A DNA stretch of 64,000 nucleotides from Tsukamurella tyrosinosolvens (GTDB taxonomy: Bacteria; Actinomycetota; Actinomycetes; Mycobacteriales; Mycobacteriaceae). Positions within the stretch are counted from its first letter, which is position 1; each line of letters starts with the position of its first letter. The stretch is from NCBI RefSeq assembly GCF_900104775.1, contig NZ_FNSA01000003.1, positions 4,340,001 to 4,404,000 of the forward strand. The letters run 5' to 3'. Made by a program: the position numbers and the translations under genes. Positions 3,766 to 25,662 of this stretch are shown piece by piece. The notes below the pieces were generated by a model, which worked only from the letters and a program-made list of their open reading frames with translations, had not been told where the DNA came from and searched no databases.

Positions 3766-6032
<2,267 letters not shown>

Positions 6033-17349: not shown

Positions 17350-19227
17350 CTAGCCGGAGATGCCCTTGGCCGCCGACGAATCGCGCGTGGTCAGGTAGTC
17401 CTGGTGGAGCATCCGGCGGGTGATGCGCGGGGTGAAGGTCCGGCCCAGTGCGCCGACGACGCCGAGCGGCGTGTTCACCCGGGTGGGCCGGTCGCGCATC
17501 GCCTTGATGATGATCCGGGCGGCCTTCTCGGGGCTGATCACATGCGCGTCGTCGTAGGCCTCGGTCGGCGCGATCATCTCCGTGCGGACCAGCGGCATGT
17601 GGACGTTGGTGAAGGTGATGTGGTCCGACAGGGTCTCGGTCGCGGCGATGTCGGTGAACGCGTCGAGCGCCGCCTTGCTCGCGACGTACGCCGCGAACCG
17701 CGGTCCGCGGGCGAGCACGCCGATGCTCGAGATGTTCACCACGTGCCCGAATCCCCGCTCCCGCATGTGCGGCAGGAGGGCGAGGATCATGCGGACGGCG
17801 CCGAAGTAGTTGACGTCCATGGTGCGCTCGAAGTCGTGCATCCGGCCGGTGGAGGCCTTCACCGAGCGACGGATCGACCGGCCCGCGTTGTTGATGAGGT
17901 AGTCGACGTGACCGTGATCGTTGAGGATCCGCGCCACGGTCGCGTCGACGACGTCACCGTCGGTCACGTCGCACACGTAGGCGGACGCCTCGCCGCCGGT
18001 CGCCCGCACCTGCTCAGCGGTGGCCTCCAGCTCGGCAGCGTTGCGCGCCAGCAGGATCACGCGCGCCCCGCGCTCGCCGAGTTCGATCGCCGTCTGGCGG
18101 CCGATGCCCGACGAGGCGCCGGTGATGACGACGTGCCGGCCGGCGATCGGGTCGCGCCGGCGGAGCCGTGCCGGATCGAGCTGCTCGCGCCAGTAGCCGA
18201 ACAGCCGGGGCCCGTACTCCCTGAGCGGAGGCACCTCGATCCCGGTGCCCTCCAGCGCCCGTTGCGTCGGCTCGGAGGTGTAGGTGGCGGTGAAGCCGAG
18301 GTTCTCGAAGGCCTTCGGCGGGATGCCGGCCTGCTTGAGGAACGTGTCCCGCACGACGCCGACCTTGCCCGTCCCGCTGACCCGGAGGGCGGGGTCAACC
18401 ACGCGGCGCGGCACCCGGCCCACCGCGCGGGGCGCCCCGGCGGGTTGGGCGATGGCCCGGTAGAGGTCCAGGACGCTCTGCGGCTCCGGATTCACCAGGT
18501 GGTAGGTCCGCCCGGTTCCCTCCGGGCGCAGCATGAGTTCGACCAGGGCCTCGGCGACGTAATCGACCGGCACCACATTGGTATCGCCGGTGTCCGGCAG
18601 CACCATCGGGACCATCGACGGCACGCGTCGCAGCGCGTCGAAGGCGGGGAAGAAGTAGTAGGGGCCGTCGACCTTGTCCATCTCGCCGGTGCGCGAGTCG
18701 CCCACCACGATGGCCGGCCGGTAGACGCGCCAGCGCAGGCCATCGGCCTCACGGACCAGCTTCTCGGACTCGAACTTCGTCCGGTGGTACGGCGACGGGA
18801 ACCTCTGCCCGAGGTCGAAGTCGTTCTCTCCGAACGTCCCTCGGTAGTCGCCGGCGACCGCGACGGAGGAGACGTGGTGCAGCTCGGCGCCGGCGCGACG
18901 CGCCAGCTCGATCACGGCGCGGGTCCCCTCGACGTTCACCCGGTCGTTCGCCGCGTCGCCCGCAGCCATGTCGTAGACCGCGCCGAGGTGCAGGACCGCG
19001 TCGATCCCCGCGGGCTCGGCCTCGATCCCGAGGCCGGGGGCGCCGAGATCGCCGGGCAGGATCCGGACGCGGTCCTCGCCCCAGCGGGCGCGCCACGCGT
19101 CGAGCTTCCACGCCGACGACGGTCGCACCAGCAGGTGGACCACCGCCTCGGGATCCCGTTCCAGCAGCAGGGGGACGATCCGGCGGCCCAGGAAACCGGT
19201 GGCGCCGGTGATCAGGTAGGTACTCAT
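17350..19227 (-). CDS. Acr1-like fatty acyl-CoA/ACP reductase (two fused SDR domains)
   Basis: A 625-residue fusion. Residues 1-370 are an extended SDR (TGATGFLGRRIVPLLLERDP cofactor loop; YHRTKFESEKLV with the catalytic Tyr/Lys). Residues about 375-625 are a classical SDR (ITGASSGIGRQTA; NNAGRS; Ser/Tyr/Lys in NISSIG and YVASKAALDAF). This layout is that of mycobacterial/Acinetobacter Acr1 enzymes that reduce long-chain acyl thioesters to aldehydes for wax or alcohol formation. ATG at 19227 with a GAGGAG upstream. A 36-bp palindrome lies 30 bases upstream. It converges with the citrate-type regulator four bases away. Confidence 0.85.
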   Translation of the reverse strand: MSTYLITGATGFLGRRIVPLLLERDPEAVVHLLVRPSSAWKLDAWRARWGEDRVRILPGDLGAPGLGIEAEPAGIDAVLHLGAVYDMAAGDAANDRVNVEGTRAVIELARRAGAELHHVSSVAVAGDYRGTFGENDFDLGQRFPSPYHRTKFESEKLVREADGLRWRVYRPAIVVGDSRTGEMDKVDGPYYFFPAFDALRRVPSMVPMVLPDTGDTNVVPVDYVAEALVELMLRPEGTGRTYHLVNPEPQSVLDLYRAIAQPAGAPRAVGRVPRRVVDPALRVSGTGKVGVVRDTFLKQAGIPPKAFENLGFTATYTSEPTQRALEGTGIEVPPLREYGPRLFGYWREQLDPARLRRRDPIAGRHVVITGASSGIGRQTAIELGERGARVILLARNAAELEATAEQVRATGGEASAYVCDVTDGDVVDATVARILNDHGHVDYLINNAGRSIRRSVKASTGRMHDFERTMDVNYFGAVRMILALLPHMRERGFGHVVNISSIGVLARGPRFAAYVASKAALDAFTDIAATETLSDHITFTNVHMPLVRTEMIAPTEAYDDAHVISPEKAARIIIKAMRDRPTRVNTPLGVVGALGRTFTPRITRRMLHQDYLTTRDSSAAKGISG

Positions 19228-19306: not shown

Positions 19307-20344
19307 TCACTCCACTGTGAGCAGGTTCTCCAAGTCGGAGGCGTCCACGAGCGGATCCTCCAGGTCGACCACCAATCGCGAGTGCGCGATCAGCCGCGCA
19401 CGGCCCGTGATGGCCGAGTGCAGCGCCGAGTACTCGCCCACCCGACCCGCGGACCGGACGGTGCCGACGAACCGGTTGCCCCGCGGGGAGATCGTCTCCA
19501 GCGACTGCCCCTCGGCGATCTGGCCCCGCCGGTGCATCAGCGCGAGGCGGGCCGAGGTACCGGTTCCGGTCGGGCTGCGGCACAACACGCCGGGGTGGAC
19601 GTACGTCGCCGACGGCGACTCGTAACGGCCGTCGCCGATCGGCCGGACCTCCCCGGTGAAGTGCGCGAACGACAACGGCCCTACGTCACCGAGATCGGGG
19701 TGCTCCTGCAGCAGGTCCGGTCGCGCCGCCCGTACGAACGCATCGCCGAACGCGGTCAGGGCGATCTGTTCGTCGGAGGCGAGGGTGAAGTCGTGGGCAC
19801 TCGCGTCGATGACGGCGTAATACGCGCCGCTCCACACCAGGTCGAATCCGACGCTGCCGTAGTACGGCACGTCGACGGCGAGCCCCTCCCGCGCGACGTA
19901 CGCGGGTTCCCCCTGAGTGGTGATCGATTCCACGCGACCGCCCCTGACCTCGGCCTCGATCCGGGCGAGGCCGGCGGGCGATTCCAGCACCACGTTCTGC
20001 GTGCCCTCCCGCATCGGGATGGCACCGCTCTGCAGCAGCGCCGTCGCCGTGCAGATCGTGTTGGAACCCGAGTACATCGGGTACCCCATGGCCTCCATGA
20101 TGATGTAGCCCGCCTGGGCCTCGGGGCGCCCCGGCTCGACGATGAGGTCCACCGACATCGCGGGGTCGCCGTAGGGCTCCGAGAGCAGCAGGCGCCGCAG
20201 CCCGTCGCCCTCGGCCTGCAGGTACCGGGCCTTCTCGCGCACCGTCGCTCCCGGGATCGGCCCGATGCCCGCGACGACGATCCGACTGACGTCGCCGCCC
20301 GACTGCGTGTCGATCAGCTCGAGCGAGCACTCACGCCGCAGCAT
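19307..20344 (-). CDS. Proline-racemase-fold protein with Ser/Thr at the catalytic positions
   Basis: A 345-residue protein of the proline racemase / hydroxyproline epimerase / trans-3-hydroxyproline dehydratase superfamily. In racemases and epimerases two cysteines act as acid/base, in MCGH-type and SPCGTGTS-type motifs. Here the first motif reads MYSGSNT (Ser92) and the second CRSPTGTGTSARLA (Thr259). Thr at the second site occurs in trans-3-hydroxyproline dehydratases, which keep the first Cys; Ser plus Thr is unusual. The activity cannot be assigned, and dehydration seems more likely than racemisation. Its start overlaps the MDR gene by 14 bases, so the two are co-translated. Confidence 0.75.
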   Translation of the reverse strand: MLRRECSLELIDTQSGGDVSRIVVAGIGPIPGATVREKARYLQAEGDGLRRLLLSEPYGDPAMSVDLIVEPGRPEAQAGYIIMEAMGYPMYSGSNTICTATALLQSGAIPMREGTQNVVLESPAGLARIEAEVRGGRVESITTQGEPAYVAREGLAVDVPYYGSVGFDLVWSGAYYAVIDASAHDFTLASDEQIALTAFGDAFVRAARPDLLQEHPDLGDVGPLSFAHFTGEVRPIGDGRYESPSATYVHPGVLCRSPTGTGTSARLALMHRRGQIAEGQSLETISPRGNRFVGTVRSAGRVGEYSALHSAITGRARLIAHSRLVVDLEDPLVDASDLENLLTVE

Positions 20345-21425
20345 GGGGCGCCCCCACGTCCGCCCAGTGCCGGTCGGGCACGACGACCAGCTTGCCGACG
20401 TAGCCCTTGCCCAGGAAGGCCCGTTGCGCGTCGTGGATCCGCGAGAGCGGATAGGTGCCGGACAGCAGCGGCCTGATCGCGCCCGACTCGATGTACCCGA
20501 GCAGCCGCCGGAACGCGCTGCGGGTGCCCTGCGAGGAGCCGTGCAACTCCAGTTGCTTGAGGTACATCGTGCGCAGGTCCAGCTGCACGACGGGGCCGCC
20601 GATGGCGCCCGCGGTGGTGTACCGCCCCTCGGGCCGGAGGATCCGCAGCAGGTCGTTGAACATCGGACCGGCCACGAGGTCGGCGACCACGTCGACCGGC
20701 GCGTCCACCACCTGCTCCACGGCGGCGACGAGGTCGGCGCCGTCGTCCCGGATCAGGACGTCCGCTGCGCCGATGTCACGCAGCGCCCCCTCCTTGCCGC
20801 GGCTCGACACCGCGTACGGCACGGCGCCGCGCACCCGCGCGAGCTGGAGGATCGCCGAGCCGACGCCGCCGGAGGCACCGGTGACGACGACCCTCTCCCC
20901 CGAGGCCAGCCGCGCCCGGTCGAGCATCTGCTCCGCGGTGAGGTACGCGCAGCAGAAGGTCGCCAGCTCGGCGTCGTCGATCGGGGCGTCGGTGCGGTAC
21001 GCGTTCTCGGCCGGGACCGCGACGTACTCCGCGTATCCGCCGTCGCGGCCGTGGCCGATGTAGTCGATGTCGGCCAGGCTCTCGTCGCCCTCCGGCCGGT
21101 TGTAGATGCTGAAATCGACGATCACGCGCTCGCCGACCCGGTCCGCGTCCACCCCGTCGCCGACCGCGGCGATCCGCCCGACAATGTCGGCGCCCTGGAT
21201 CCGGGGGAAGGTCAGTGTGGACCTCCCGCGGCGCCACGTCGAGACGGAGGCGGGGTCGGTCTCGGTGCCGTACGCGCCCTCGCGGACCCACACGTCGGTG
21301 TTGTTCATGCCGCAGGCGTGCACGTCGATGAGCACCTCGCCGGGGGCGGGGCTGGGCAGCGGCACGTCCTCGCGGTAGACCAGGTTGTCCAACCCGCCGT
21401 GGGCGACCAGCTGAACGGCCCTCAT
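20331..21425 (-). CDS. MDR-family (quinone/enoyl reductase-like) oxidoreductase
   Basis: A medium-chain dehydrogenase/reductase of 364 residues from the ATG at 21425. A GTG at 21479 would add 18 residues. The Rossmann loop is VTGASGGVGSAILQLA. The GHE zinc-ligand motif is replaced by QGADIVG, so it resembles zinc-independent quinone or enoyl-thioester reductases rather than alcohol dehydrogenases. It should use NADPH to reduce an activated double bond. It overlaps the racemase-fold gene and begins under 100 bases after the SdpA-like gene on the same strand, so it may be part of the peptide operon or a separate small-molecule unit. Confidence 0.82.
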   Translation of the reverse strand: MRAVQLVAHGGLDNLVYREDVPLPSPAPGEVLIDVHACGMNNTDVWVREGAYGTETDPASVSTWRRGRSTLTFPRIQGADIVGRIAAVGDGVDADRVGERVIVDFSIYNRPEGDESLADIDYIGHGRDGGYAEYVAVPAENAYRTDAPIDDAELATFCCAYLTAEQMLDRARLASGERVVVTGASGGVGSAILQLARVRGAVPYAVSSRGKEGALRDIGAADVLIRDDGADLVAAVEQVVDAPVDVVADLVAGPMFNDLLRILRPEGRYTTAGAIGGPVVQLDLRTMYLKQLELHGSSQGTRSAFRRLLGYIESGAIRPLLSGTYPLSRIHDAQRAFLGKGYVGKLVVVPDRHWADVGAPHAAA

Positions 21426-21521
21426 CGTCGCAGGAGCACCGGATCGATCTGATGACTCCACCCCTTCGATGCTAACCACGAGCCCGTCCGCCGTCAGCCG
21501 TTTCGTGACGTCAGCTACAGA

Positions 21522-22070
21522 TCAGGCGAGTGGGACGAACTCCGAGACCAGGACGTGCTGAGGGTCCTCGGAGTCGTCGTACCCGGAGTACCGGATCACC
21601 GCGAACTGGAAGCCCTCGAGGTCGGGGCCGGAGTCGTCCCCCGCGGCGCCCACCACCGACGCTCGGACGAACTCCCGCAACATGCGGTACGCGGCCTTCG
21701 TCTCGACATCGCCGCGGGATGCGGCCACACCCACCTCCGTACAGACGTCGGACAAGGCCTTGTCGCGGCGCCGCTCCGGGAAGAAGAGTGCGTGCCGCCA
21801 CGTCCTCCGGCGCGACGGGACCGTCTCCCGCCACTCGGTCACGCCCCCGTCGGTCCCGACGGTCCGGTGGACGACGTGGAAGTCGTGCCGCGCGGGCTCC
21901 GGCGCGAAGAAGCGCCAATTGGGGATGAGGATCCCGATCGGATCCAGGCGCCGCACCCGGTCGAACATCTTGTTGGGATGCTGGGCCGCCGCGGTGACCA
22001 GCAGCGCGCCCGCGAGGCCCCACTCGACGGACCGCGCGGGCAGCCGGGCGCCGCCGTCACGCCCGGACAT
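21522..22070 (-). CDS. SdpA/DUF5819-like partner of the HTTM protein
   Basis: A 182-residue protein. A short hydrophobic stretch near the N-terminus (about 15-30, EWGLAGALLVTAAAQ) is followed by the segment IPNWRFFAPEPARHDFHV (about 49-66). This W-x-FF-P-x-P pattern is what SdpA-type and DUF5819 proteins show beside HTTM (SdpB-like) proteins; the match is by eye. The rest is predicted globular and acidic. It may be membrane-anchored and help mature or export the peptide encoded upstream. ATG 22070 overlaps the HTTM gene by 14 bases. An upstream in-frame start at 22142 would add 24 Arg-rich residues and is unlikely. Confidence 0.62.
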   Translation of the reverse strand: MSGRDGGARLPARSVEWGLAGALLVTAAAQHPNKMFDRVRRLDPIGILIPNWRFFAPEPARHDFHVVHRTVGTDGGVTEWRETVPSRRRTWRHALFFPERRRDKALSDVCTEVGVAASRGDVETKAAYRMLREFVRASVVGAAGDDSGPDLEGFQFAVIRYSGYDDSEDPQHVLVSEFVPLA

Positions 22071-23895
22071 GCTCGCCACCCACCGTCGACTCGGACGCCA
22101 CGAACGCGCGGATCTCCGCCGCGACCCGGCGTGCGTGCGCACGGTCGTAGAGCAGGCCGTCGTGGTCCGCCCCGTCGATCACGGCGCGCCGGGACCGGAT
22201 CCCGCCGGCGGCGTACTCGTCCTGGAGCTCCCGGTGCACGGGGTCGTTGGCCTCGCTGGTCTCCGCCGTGACCACCAGGCGGGGGACGTCGGTCGTGGGC
22301 GGCGCGCCGCCGCACACCGCGAAATCCGCGACGAGGCCGCGCCATTCGTGCCGCGCGGTCACCCACAGCCCCTGTTCGCGGAACCGGTCGAGCGCCGCCG
22401 CGCGCACGGCCCGGGGCAGGCGGTCGAGGGACGCGGGACGCTGTGCCAGCGGGCCCAGGCCCAGCCGCATGGACCAGGCGATGATGCCGAGCGCGGGTCC
22501 CAGCCGACTGGTGCCGGTCGCCTGAGCCGGCGAGCGGCGGAGTTGGTCCGGGTGACTCGCGTCGAGCAGGCTGACGGTGCCGACGGCGGCACCCACCTCG
22601 CCGGCGGCGCGCAACGCGAGGTATCCGCCGACCGAATGTCCCACCAGGTGAACCGGCCTGCCGTCGCCCTCCGCCCGCGCCAGGTCGACGAGCCGCCCCA
22701 CCTCCGCGTCGAGACCGGGGCCCGAGGGCGGGGCGGCGGCCCGGTCGACGATGACGACGCGGTGGTCCTCGGCGAGGTCGGCGGCGATCCACTCCCAGCC
22801 TTCCGGCACCGCGCCCAGGCCGTGCACGAGGATCACCGCCGGTGCGTCCGGACCGGCCGCCCCGTCGGCTACCCGGTAGCGCAGCGCCCCGCCGCGGGTG
22901 GCGAGGACGCGCTCGTCCCCGCGGCCGGCGCGGACCCGGCGGCGGCGACGCGCGTTCTCCACGGCGAGAAGGGCCGCTCCGCCCACGGCGGCGAGAGCGA
23001 CGGTGCGCGGGAAGGCGTCGCTGCGTGGGGATTCGCCCGCGCGGGCACCACCGGGCCGGTATTCGCGGTCGGTCGCGTACAGCAGCGGCGGGTACATCGC
23101 GGTGAACGCCCAGAGGAACCGCCCCAGCCCCATCACCCGGGTGTTGGCGAGGTGGAAACAGCCCATCGCCAGAGCGAAGAACGGCGCGGGACGACCCCCG
23201 AGCAGGTGTGCGGCGGGGAACAGGCACTCGCACGCGAGGACCCCGCGCTCGAGGAGAGCCGTCGTGCGGGGGTGTTCGTGGAACAGCCTCCACGCCAGGG
23301 GATCACCGTAGGTCCGGGTGCGGGTCACCTCGATCACCGCGCGCCCCGACCGCCACACCGGGCTGGTGAGCTTCACCCAGCCGGAGGCGCCGTAGGACAG
23401 CGTCGCCTGGGCGGCCAGGTACCACAGGCAGGCGTCCACCCACCGCGCGTCGCGGCCGCGGAGGCGCGCGAGAGCACAGGTCGCGGACACGAGAAACGAG
23501 ACGTGGTCGGCACCGTCGGCGCCGAAATGGTTGCGCGGCTGCAGGATCGCGGAGGACGCGCCGAGCGTCGCGTTCGCCGCGCACCGCACCCGCGGCGCGG
23601 TGGGAGCCAGCACTGCAGCGGCGGCCGCGAGCCGCAGTACGTGCAGCGCGTTCGTCGCGGCGGGACCGGAGACGGCGTCGACCGGCGGACCGAGGCGCGG
23701 TGCGCGGGTGAGGAAGTCCTCGCGGTCGAGACGCCAGTCGGCGAGGCCGCCGGGGCGGCGGTCGATGTCGCGCGCGAGGTACTCGGCGGAGGCGATCGCA
23801 TGACAGGCGGCGGCGAGCCGCTCGGCACCGTCGAGCGCACCGTCGCGCCCGATCGACGGGCGGCGCAACGGGATCCGGTTCAGCATCGAGAGCAT
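22057..23895 (-). CDS. HTTM (SdpB/VKGC-like) membrane domain fused to an alpha/beta hydrolase
   Basis: A 612-residue fusion. Residues 1-310 are a multi-pass HTTM domain: hydrophobic segments at about 82-100, 128-145, 155-172, 215-265 and 295-312, with NHFGADGADHVSF (122-134). YGASGWVKLTSPVW follows; its Lys175 aligns by eye with the catalytic-base Lys218 region of human gamma-glutamyl carboxylase. Residues 335-612 are an alpha/beta hydrolase with VILVHGLG, nucleophile Ser421 in GHSVGG, acid candidates at 545-551 and His578 in DGADHDG, so it should be active. It probably acts on the upstream peptide. No Shine-Dalgarno is visible before ATG 23895 or 23886, and a hairpin ends 11 bases upstream. 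Confidence 0.75.
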   Translation of the reverse strand: MLSMLNRIPLRRPSIGRDGALDGAERLAAACHAIASAEYLARDIDRRPGGLADWRLDREDFLTRAPRLGPPVDAVSGPAATNALHVLRLAAAAAVLAPTAPRVRCAANATLGASSAILQPRNHFGADGADHVSFLVSATCALARLRGRDARWVDACLWYLAAQATLSYGASGWVKLTSPVWRSGRAVIEVTRTRTYGDPLAWRLFHEHPRTTALLERGVLACECLFPAAHLLGGRPAPFFALAMGCFHLANTRVMGLGRFLWAFTAMYPPLLYATDREYRPGGARAGESPRSDAFPRTVALAAVGGAALLAVENARRRRRVRAGRGDERVLATRGGALRYRVADGAAGPDAPAVILVHGLGAVPEGWEWIAADLAEDHRVVIVDRAAAPPSGPGLDAEVGRLVDLARAEGDGRPVHLVGHSVGGYLALRAAGEVGAAVGTVSLLDASHPDQLRRSPAQATGTSRLGPALGIIAWSMRLGLGPLAQRPASLDRLPRAVRAAALDRFREQGLWVTARHEWRGLVADFAVCGGAPPTTDVPRLVVTAETSEANDPVHRELQDEYAAGGIRSRRAVIDGADHDGLLYDRAHARRVAAEIRAFVASESTVGGEHVRA

Positions 23896-23906
23896 GACGT
23901 GGGAAG

Positions 23907-23937
23907 GGCCGCGCCCCGCGAGGGACGGGGCGCGGCC
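23907..23937 (-). terminator. GC-rich intra-operon hairpin (attenuator-like)
   Basis: A perfect 12-base stem, GGCCGCGCCCCG pairing with CGGGGCGCGGCC, closes a 7-base loop between the precursor-like gene (stop at 23951) and the HTTM gene (ATG 23895). No U-run follows, as is common in high-GC actinobacteria. It could terminate most transcripts after the peptide or stabilise its 3' end, giving excess peptide over enzyme. Confidence 0.65.
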
Positions 23938-23950
23938 ACCTGCCGTCCGG

Positions 23951-24145
23951 TCAGAACGCGCCGGCTGCCGCCGCGAAGTTGGCGTCGCCGCCCATGCCCG
24001 CGACGTCGACACCGCCCCCGCCGCCGGCCGCGAAGCCCACGCTGGTCACGGGCGCGGTCGCGCCCACGTACGCCGGCCGATCGAGGTCCACGGGGGTCCC
24101 CGCGAGGACAGCGCTCCGGTTCACCTTCGAAATCATCTCCGTCAT
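23951..24145 (-). CDS. 64-residue precursor-like peptide (putative RiPP or SDP-like)
   Basis: An ATG at 24145, with a GAAGG sequence nine bases upstream, opens a 64-codon frame. Residues 1-30 are mixed polar/hydrophobic (MTEMISKVNRSAVLAG, then DLDRPAYVGA), like a leader. Residues 37-64 are small and neutral: a five-Gly run at 41-45, VDVAGMGGD, and AAAAGAF at the end. There is no Cys, no Lys after residue 7, only one Glu and no signal peptide. The size, the two-part composition, the hairpin behind it and the HTTM/SdpA-like genes downstream make it a good candidate for a ribosomally made, modified peptide. Modification and activity are unknown, and a false small ORF cannot be fully excluded. 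Confidence 0.6.
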   Translation of the reverse strand: MTEMISKVNRSAVLAGTPVDLDRPAYVGATAPVTSVGFAAGGGGGVDVAGMGGDANFAAAAGAF

Positions 24146-24450
24146 GAGAAAACCCTTCGTCTCCGCCGCCGAGCGGCGTCGTCGGATGTTGGGGTGAACG
24201 TCCCCGTCCTGCTGCTCGAATCGGGAACGGCGCGAAGGTAGCTCCGCCCGCGCGGGAGCGTCAACGGCTTCGCGGCGCGCGGGCGCACCGATCACGGGGC
24301 GCGCGGGCCAGGATCCGCTTCCCGTACATCGTCCGAACAGTGGCTTTACCGCCCGATTACGGTGCACGGATCGGCGCGGAGCACGGTTGCCCTTTTCCCA
24401 ACCCAGTGTGCCTCAGATCACTTGTCGGACCTCGGCGCGATACTGCCGCC
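24146..24450. promoter_or_regulatory. Divergent promoter region of the peptide operon and dinB
   Basis: This 305-base gap holds the promoters of the precursor-like gene (leftward) and dinB (rightward). The dinB -10 (GATACT, 24439-24444) is clear. The middle is very GC-rich (around 24245-24310) with several short inverted GC strings. I see no coding frame, tRNA, riboswitch or long repeat in it. Confidence 0.5.
24439..24444 (+). promoter_or_regulatory. dinB -10 element, leaderless type
   Basis: GATACT ends exactly six bases before the dinB ATG at 24451, so transcription would start at or next to the A of the start codon. No Shine-Dalgarno is present, as expected for a leaderless mRNA. Confidence 0.5.
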
Positions 24451-25662
24451 ATGAGCATGGACGCGCGGGCCGAGGCGTCGATCCTCCATGCCGATCTCGA
24501 CTCCTTCTACGCTTCGGTCGAGCAGCGCGACCACCCGTGGCTGCGCGGCCGGCCCGTCCTCGTCGGCTCGGGCGTCGTGCTCGCCGCCAGCTACGAGGCG
24601 AAGGCGAAGGGCGTCCGCTCCCCGATGCCGCACCGCGAGGCCCTGGCGCTCGCGCCGTTCGCGATCACCCAGCCGCCCCGGTTCGACGCGTACATGGAGG
24701 CCAGCCGCCGGGTCTTCGAGATCTTCCGGGACACCACCCCGCTGGTCGAGGGCCTGTCCGTCGACGAGGCCTTCCTCGACGTGGGCGGCCTCCGCGGCAT
24801 CCGCGGCACTCCGGTGGAGATCGCGGCCCGGCTGCGCGAGCGGGTGCGCACGGAGGTCGGGCTGCCGATCACGGTCGGCGTCGCGCGCAGCAAGTTCCTC
24901 GCCAAGGTCGCCAGCGCCGTCGGCAAACCCGACGGGCTGCTCGAGGTCCCACCGGGCACGGAGCTGCAGTTCCTGCACCCGCTGCCCGTGCGGCGGCTGT
25001 GGGGCGTGGGCCCCAAGACCGAGGCCAAGCTGCACGAGGTGGGGGTCGGCACCGTCGGGCAGATCGCGGAGCTGGGCGAGCACCGCCTGGCGTCCTTCCT
25101 CGGGCGGGGCACCGCGCGACACCTGTACGCGCTGTCCATGGCGCACGACCCCCGCCGCGTCGACACCGGACGGCGGCGCAAGTCGATCGGCGCGCAGCGG
25201 GCCCTGGGCCGCCGGATGACGTCGGAGACGGAGATCGAGGGCACCGCCCTCGCGATCGTGGACCGCCTGGGCGAGCGACTGCGCGCCGCGGGGCGCGTGA
25301 CGCGGACCGTCGAACTACGGCTGCGGTTCGACGATTTCACGTCCGTCACCCGGTCCCGCTCCCTGCGTGAACCGACCGACCGGACGGAAGTCGTGCTCGC
25401 CACCGCGCGGGGCCTGCTCGACGAGGCGATGCCGCTCGTGCGCGAGCGCGGCTGCACCCTGATCGGGCTCTCGTTGGCGAACCTGGAGAACCACGGCGCG
25501 GTGCAGCTGGCCCTGCCGTTCGACGGCGGCGAGCACGACGCCGACCTGGACCTCGCGATGGACTCGCTGCGCACCCGGTACGGGCGTGCGGCCGTGACCC
25601 GCGGCTCGCTCCTGCACCGCCCCCTCGGCCCGGACGCACCGATGCTGACCGAGCAGGACTAG
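24451..25662 (+). CDS. dinB: DNA polymerase IV (Y-family)
   Basis: A 403-residue translesion polymerase that extends past damaged or mispaired bases with low fidelity. Catalytic motifs are HADLDSFYASVEQ (about 13-25) and LSVDEAFLDV (about 105-114). The helix-hairpin-helix/thumb region has RRLWGVGPKTEAKL. The little-finger domain ends with VQLALPF, a classical beta-clamp-binding motif that would bring it to the replisome. The ATG at 24451 (an ATG at 24457 is the alternative) is six bases after a GATACT -10. No convincing SOS box is seen. Confidence 0.95.
   Translation: MSMDARAEASILHADLDSFYASVEQRDHPWLRGRPVLVGSGVVLAASYEAKAKGVRSPMPHREALALAPFAITQPPRFDAYMEASRRVFEIFRDTTPLVEGLSVDEAFLDVGGLRGIRGTPVEIAARLRERVRTEVGLPITVGVARSKFLAKVASAVGKPDGLLEVPPGTELQFLHPLPVRRLWGVGPKTEAKLHEVGVGTVGQIAELGEHRLASFLGRGTARHLYALSMAHDPRRVDTGRRRKSIGAQRALGRRMTSETEIEGTALAIVDRLGERLRAAGRVTRTVELRLRFDDFTSVTRSRSLREPTDRTEVVLATARGLLDEAMPLVRERGCTLIGLSLANLENHGAVQLALPFDGGEHDADLDLAMDSLRTRYGRAAVTRGSLLHRPLGPDAPMLTEQD

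Follow-up and report, generated by a model that had tools for sequence, protein, structure and literature searches.

A probable minimal linaridin cluster with an aberrant precursor peptide in Tsukamurella tyrosinosolvens

Background

Linaridins are a known class of ribosomally synthesized and post-translationally modified peptides (RiPPs). According to a study comparing corynaridin with grisemycin and legonaridin, linaridin clusters encode LinL, an HTTM protein and an alpha/beta hydrolase, LinL is the marker typically used for finding them, and an earlier analysis covered 561 of these clusters; the same text calls linaridin maturation and the exact mechanism of LinH and LinL unclear (PMC9927463). 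Another source describes dehydrated residues in linaridins and D-residues in those of type A. For grisemycin, it presents the LinL protein GrmL as indispensable, the function of grmL as unknown and a role as an epimerase as possible (PMC10373908). Here, a three-gene operon of Tsukamurella tyrosinosolvens is compared with these systems. It lies in a stretch of 64,000 nucleotides, referred to as the window (RefSeq assembly GCF_900104775.1, contig NZ_FNSA01000003.1, positions 4,340,001 to 4,404,000, forward strand), and runs leftward from a 64 amino acid (AA) precursor peptide through a 612 AA fusion of an HTTM-type membrane domain and an alpha/beta hydrolase to a 182 AA protein whose frame shares 14 bases with that of the fusion (Table 1). 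An earlier sequence-only reading had described these genes as a candidate undescribed peptide operon resembling the SDP toxin operon of SdpA, SdpB and SdpC.

Results

Assignment to the linaridins

The operon is very probably a minimal linaridin RiPP cluster with the order precursor (LinA), LinH and LinL. This assignment is based on the gene order, on the fact that each of the three parts has homologues in linaridin clusters, and on the conservation of the peptide. As far as these comparisons reach, the Tsukamurella form is a stripped-down variant of the known linaridin class with an aberrant precursor, and not a new kind of toxin operon. LinL, the HTTM domain with the hydrolase and a short same-strand precursor with a linaridin-like leader upstream of LinH are all present. 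The PxxxTP motif and a dedicated ATP-binding cassette (ABC) transporter are missing, as are the C-terminal Cys and the LinD decarboxylase of type A. The three leftward genes of 64, 612 and 182 AA, including the overlap, were found as first described, but the kind of operon is not undescribed, since the LinH/LinL pair belongs to the linaridins.

The connection to curated linaridins was made with the NCBIfam model NF033752 (cypemycin-family RiPP), which was searched in 394 genomes of the class and matched two, one of them above the cut-off (G525, 98.4 bits against a cut-off of 35). Directly downstream of the precursor in this genome (locus L157) lies an HTTM-hydrolase fusion of 617 AA, which the profile matches at an E-value of 2e-73 and the window protein, by phmmer, at 2e-35. 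A LinL of 188 AA comes next (8e-28 and 7e-17 in the same two comparisons), and beyond it, according to Pfam, a flavoprotein, a methyltransferase and an ABC ATPase. Within the family of the window's genome, G107 and G062 carry a precursor with P-V-M-T-T-P, after which HTTM, hydrolase and LinL come as individual genes; this precursor matches two NCBIfam linaridin models at E-values of 4e-6 to 3e-5 without reaching their curated cut-offs. The split cluster of G107 (L054) sits between genes that resemble, by eye, those of the ribosomal proteins L1 and L10/L7. Four annotated Streptomyces regions contain short PxxxTP peptides, the HTTM and hydrolase parts (fused or split) and a homologue of the 182 AA protein in varying order, together with an S-adenosylmethionine methyltransferase, an ABC transporter and a flavin adenine dinucleotide oxidoreductase. 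A fifth region, from S. atratus, has lanthipeptide genes instead, and a Rhodococcus region has neither.

Scanning named genomes with the LinL alignment yielded 76 loci. Both HTTM and hydrolase are encoded in 74 of them, the exceptions being L121 and L132, and form one open reading frame (ORF) in 42 of the 74. The surroundings of the 76 loci were scored with a single reference protein for each neighboring gene; on this basis, the 63 loci with full flanks show a methyltransferase in 46 cases, an ABC transporter in 45 and an oxidoreductase in 35. No ABC transporter is seen at 18 of the 63, including the two from Tsukamurella, and none of the three neighbors at 11, which comprise both Tsukamurella loci and nine from outside the genus.

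The precursor peptide

Among 16 Tsukamurella genomes, strong matches to the peptide beyond its own genome (G000) were restricted to G125 (88 %, E 4e-29) and G201 (87 %, E 1e-28), and the other 13 gave matches of 5.6e-5 or weaker. Both copies adjoin homologues of the fusion and of the 182 AA protein, so that the pairing of peptide and fusion in other genomes, on which the sequence-only reading had made its proposal depend, was found. Base differences at codon positions 1/2/3 amount to 5/5/28 between G000 and G125 and to 6/6/22 between G000 and G201, the latter including the out-of-frame last residues of G201. Since the peptide is kept in two congeners beside the same enzymes and the differences lie mainly at third codon positions, this pattern indicates that it is a true gene and more than a chance ORF. 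Its leader-like N-terminal half and Gly/Ala-rich C-terminal half, from which a peptide operon had been proposed, were borne out, and it contains no Cys and, by eye, no signal peptide.

The boundary between leader and core can be placed tentatively from the alignment with precursors containing P-V-M-A-T-P. Between G000 and G125, 2 of the 31 predicted core residues differ, compared with 6 of the 33 leader residues. The predicted core has one Thr, one Ser, no Cys, no Glu, two Asp and 32 % Gly, which makes it the most Gly-rich of the compared cores, whose highest share is 28 %. At most two Ser/Thr occur in 17 of the 69 comparison cores, and 51 are free of Cys.

The leader (residues 1-35) was searched against 5,411 ORFs of 30 to 150 AA from 74 LinL loci, with both Tsukamurella loci left out. 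Each of the 12 best matches was a precursor-like ORF lying upstream of LinH, with an E-value of 0.016 for the first, and the 13th was unrelated. Searching the same ORFs with the full peptide likewise gave 12 precursor-like ORFs in a row (first E 2e-4), and the leader can be aligned with linaridin precursors from Streptomyces. In a search with a profile of 37 V/I-N leaders, the peptide came first of 428 window ORFs (E 0.0083; the next, unrelated, 0.96), although the profile rows were picked for V/I-N leaders, which favors the peptide. A leader regular expression applied to the window and the 76 loci picked out 14 of their 4,699 ORFs, all precursor-like and one of them, in L080, on the opposite strand; since the expression was composed after the sequences had been seen, the leader-query search is the fairer test. 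Candidate PxxxTP precursors numbered 69, in 43 of the 74 LinL loci with an HTTM match, after one spurious ORF (L068_2540_2836) had been removed by hand from 70. The script used excluded Arg/Pro-rich ORFs and picked starts, and the precursors of L071 and L072, which lie too far upstream, are not among the 69.

Several observations count against the linaridin assignment. With a profile built from all 69 precursors, the window peptide reaches an E-value of just 2.5, and it matches no linaridin model in NCBIfam. It has no PxxxTP, showing A-P-V-T-S(-V) where the alignment has A-P-V-M-A-T-P. Searches of the 64-kb window with linaridin-type references for the ABC transporter, the methyltransferase and the oxidoreductase found none of the three. 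A strong peptide match occurs in just 3 of the 16 Tsukamurella genomes, its own included. In one of them, G201 (Tsukamurella sp. PLM1, locus L065), the end of the peptide is out of frame and the LinH gene is split over two frames, possibly due to an assembly error or to decay.

The missing motif, the missing transporter and tailoring neighbors, the broken frames and the patchy presence would also fit a once complete linaridin cluster that is decaying and from which processed peptide is no longer made. However, the excess of third-position differences and a core that differs less than the leader argue for selection on the core. The PxxxTP motif is not universal either, as the LinL-linked peptides of L074, L079 and L082 have the same type of leader without it, and the nine loci outside Tsukamurella that show none of the three usual neighbors, at which decay was not assessed, resemble the window in this respect. 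Decay is therefore considered improbable.

The LinH-like fusion and the LinL-like protein

The fusion is 70 % identical to its G125 copy, and its structure model has a predicted local distance difference test (pLDDT) score of 88.3. The claim that an HTTM domain is fused to an intact hydrolase holds for the hydrolase half, which contains G-H-S-V-G and a C-terminal His (His578). For the membrane half, the Pfam HTTM match is weak (E 0.0072, 16.4 bits, below the cut-off of 27.7), and the model has no match in the window's genome at E <= 0.001. Profile comparison by hhalign with the SdpB-like protein of the actinobacterium G224 is significant (probability 96 %, E 4e-9), and the relation appears to be a link at the superfamily level. 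The hydrolase perhaps releases the leader, but a full-length LinH relative (L080, Actinacidiphila, 4005-5978) has G-H-A-L-G for G-H-S-L-G, the hydrolase Ser being replaced by Ala. A second, divergent lin-like operon was seen in Tsukamurella G053 (L053, 5497-8545), with a 73 AA peptide, a fusion (28 %), a LinL (37 %) and an HTH_20 protein; by eye, the hydrolase elbow of this fusion reads A-H-R-S-A-A, not G-x-S-x-G.

Lys175 in the HTTM domain is invariant in a 25-row LinH alignment and lies at a position like that of a Lys which GGCX presumably uses or needs. This would agree with a GGCX-like carboxylase that modifies Asp/Glu side chains of a small regulatory peptide outside the linaridins, as would the description of HTTM as the membrane domain of the gamma-glutamyl (vitamin-K-dependent) carboxylase (PMC5343777). 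However, the same enzyme families serve linaridin precursors, and the predicted core offers two Asp and no Glu, which leaves such a carboxylase extremely improbable.

The 182 AA protein is 27-50 % identical to LinL from 74 non-Tsukamurella loci. In an alignment of 62 rows, P50, W52, F54, F55, A56, P57 and P59 are invariant, and the structure model has a pLDDT of 81.9. The N-terminal helix may serve as a membrane anchor. Pfam gives a match to DUF5819 below its cut-off. In a sample of 396 genomes from the phylum, LinL was found in eight, the window's own included. In the midpoint-rooted LinL tree of 62 rows, the three sequences from Tsukamurella group as a clade with 100/100 support inside the set; the nearest LinL proteins by tree path are those of Streptomyces WMMB 322 and abyssalis, both with V-N leaders, and the deeper joins are partly unresolved.

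This protein had been called SdpA-like and described by a W-x-FF-P-x-P motif. The motif is present as W-R-F-F-A-P-E-P, but the likeness to SdpA did not hold: SdpA (PF17418) has no match in the window's genome at E <= 0.001 and turned up in one of 198 genomes from the phylum, and hhalign gives LinL and SdpA a non-significant probability of 0.3-0.4 %. A cannibalism toxin operon of the SDP type, with the peptide as a divergent SdpC, the fusion as a variant of SdpB and the small protein as SdpA, could draw on the relation of the LinH membrane domain to the SdpB-like protein of G224 and on hhalign with a larger alignment, which places the W-x-F-F-x-x-x-P stretches of LinL and SdpA together. Against it stand the insignificant profile score, the genome without SdpA, a leader that matches linaridin leaders with no signal peptide by eye, and a gene order unlike that of L141, which by eye runs SdpC-SdpA-SdpB. 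It is thus very improbable; fusion and small protein correspond to LinH and LinL, and only the HTTM part appears to be shared with the SdpB-like protein.

Genomic setting

Table 1 Features of the operon and its surroundings (positions in the window)
Feature	Coordinates	Strand	Details and basis
Three-gene operon	21522-24145	-	
Precursor peptide, LinA-like, 64 AA	23951..24145	-	leader ~residues 1-33; predicted core ~34-64 (TSVGFAAGGGGG...AAAAGAF)
13-bp GC hairpin, between precursor and LinH	23907..23937	-	z -3.14; stem kept in G125
LinH-like fusion, 612 AA, HTTM-type membrane domain and alpha/beta hydrolase	22057..23895	-	homology, alignment
Membrane helical domain, HTTM type, LinH residues ~17-323, invariant Lys175	22927..23847	-	25-row alignment
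Alpha/beta hydrolase domain, LinH residues ~327-605, G-H-S-V-G elbow, His578	22081..22917	-	motif
LinL-like protein, 182 AA, one N-terminal helix, W-R-F-F-A-P-E-P	21522..22070	-	family match, alignment
dinB	24448-25659	+	divergent, flanks operon
Alcohol dehydrogenase	20331-21479	-	Pfam; flanks operon on the other side
Proline-racemase family gene	19307-20344		downstream of operon; Pfam
Reductase	17350-19227		downstream of operon; Pfam

Because linaridins can contain D-residues, the dehydrogenase, racemase and reductase genes downstream were weighed as cluster members. They were rejected, as G086, G178 and G148 have dinB immediately followed by the dehydrogenase and the racemase without an alignable lin operon. 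This comparison was made with blastn only, and the alignment of L142 extends about 20 bases into the LinL end. The proline-racemase gene occurs in 6 of the 16 Tsukamurella genomes, 3 of which have no lin genes at that site. Since no alignable copies of the three genes lie between dinB and the dehydrogenase in G086, G178 and G148, the lin operon may be a mobile or frequently lost module.

The 182 AA protein shows 100 % identity to its counterpart in T. tyrosinosolvens NCTC13231, as does the fusion over its N-terminal 365 residues. The annotation of that strain labels the peptide and the small protein 'hypothetical protein' and the fusion 'alpha/beta fold hydrolase'. No ABC transporter is annotated around the operon there, in a gene table that is incomplete. 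By tblastn, the N-terminal 365 residues match 17 plasmid records and the 182 AA protein 15, each set including 11 from Streptomyces and one from NCTC13231. The latter, NZ_LR134464.1, is listed as a plasmid; it is probably a piece of the chromosome because it holds purine biosynthesis genes and this region.

Between the precursor and LinH, 2 of 200 shuffled sequences fold as well as the 13-bp stem (z -3.14). G125 keeps the same stem with a compensatory change from C-G to U-A; it was not seen in G201. No T-run terminator was found, and scans for promoter and terminator consensus sequences found nothing. In RiPP operons, such stems often hold precursor transcript in excess. The hairpin is possibly an attenuator of this kind, which would leave more precursor than enzyme transcript.

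Discussion

If the operon acts as a linaridin cluster, the leader would dock the precursor on a putative membrane-bound complex of LinH and LinL. This complex might abstract alpha-protons of the core, leading to epimerization and/or, at the two Ser/Thr residues with a beta-hydroxyl, to dehydration. The leader would be removed near A-P-V, and a Gly/Ala-rich core of about 31 residues, perhaps an antimicrobial or signaling peptide, would be released and exported by an unlinked transporter. Epimerization may dominate in this operon because the predicted core has just one Thr and one Ser. A further point against the proposed scheme concerns its dehydration half, which is made doubtful by a review that has kinases and lyases involved in the dehydration of cypemycin and some other RiPPs (PMC10880069). 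No kinase or lyase gene is found among the six operon neighbors scanned with Pfam.

A more speculative extension, which we regard as rather unlikely, is that LinH/LinL in this clade is mainly or only a peptide epimerase that makes a Gly/Ala peptide rich in D-residues without other tailoring, and that proton abstraction is driven by its Lys-bearing HTTM domain, a relative of GGCX and SdpB. If true, the maturation of linaridins and of SDP would share one ancestral chemistry. This idea fits clusters with LanB/LanC and LinG/LinE/LinL in Streptomyces atratus and gelaticus, since a separate dehydratase is present there and the Lin trio is still kept. In S. atratus (L060, 2311-9355, NZ_CP108284.1), a lantibiotic dehydratase, LanC and a Cys-containing short ORF directly precede a split LinG-LinE-LinL set, and its LanB and LanC have matches at two of the 76 named loci, L086 and L088. 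The Lin enzymes of these lanthipeptide-linaridin hybrid clusters thus seem to act other than by dehydration.

With its three genes and few tailoring steps, the operon is compact and could provide a simple test bed for the function of LinH and LinL. Its precursor without PxxxTP means that motif-based searches can overlook members, and the tempting SDP label for actinobacterial pairs of HTTM and W-x-FF-A-P-x-P genes is corrected. No paper on a Tsukamurella linaridin was found among the literature matches listed; the operon may already stand in the 2020 linaridin survey.

Among described systems, the cypemycin/grisemycin type (type A), represented by L157 of G525, shares precursor, HTTM-hydrolase fusion and LinL in the same order. 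It differs in having a flavoprotein decarboxylase, a methyltransferase and an ABC ATPase. The last two are unmatched in the reference search of the window; no flavoprotein decarboxylase is found among the six operon-flanking genes scanned with Pfam, and the 64-kb search used no decarboxylase reference. Moreover, the window peptide has no C-terminal Cys and therefore would form no aminovinyl-cysteine (AviCys) ring, and PxxxTP is lost. Closest in leader are type B-like Streptomyces clusters (L071, L074, L067, L131), with Gly/Ala-rich cores and LinL proteins 40-50 % identical to that of the window. L074 and L131 also resemble it in showing no transporter, methyltransferase or oxidoreductase, whereas L067 and L071 have all three. 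These clusters differ in encoding several precursors each, with P-V-L-[AS]-T-P kept in L067, L071 and L131. Corynaridin of Corynebacterium lactis likewise has LinL, an HTTM protein and an alpha/beta hydrolase, with no methyltransferase or decarboxylase; however, HTTM and hydrolase are separate genes, the cluster has its own short-chain dehydrogenase/reductase and ABC transporter, and the precursor has PxxxTP and seven Thr in its C-terminal part (PMC9927463). The SDP operon (SdpABC) appears to share with LinH the HTTM superfamily of SdpB, whereas the window has no SdpA match and no secreted SdpC-like precursor, and its HTTM domain is fused to a hydrolase in a linaridin context.

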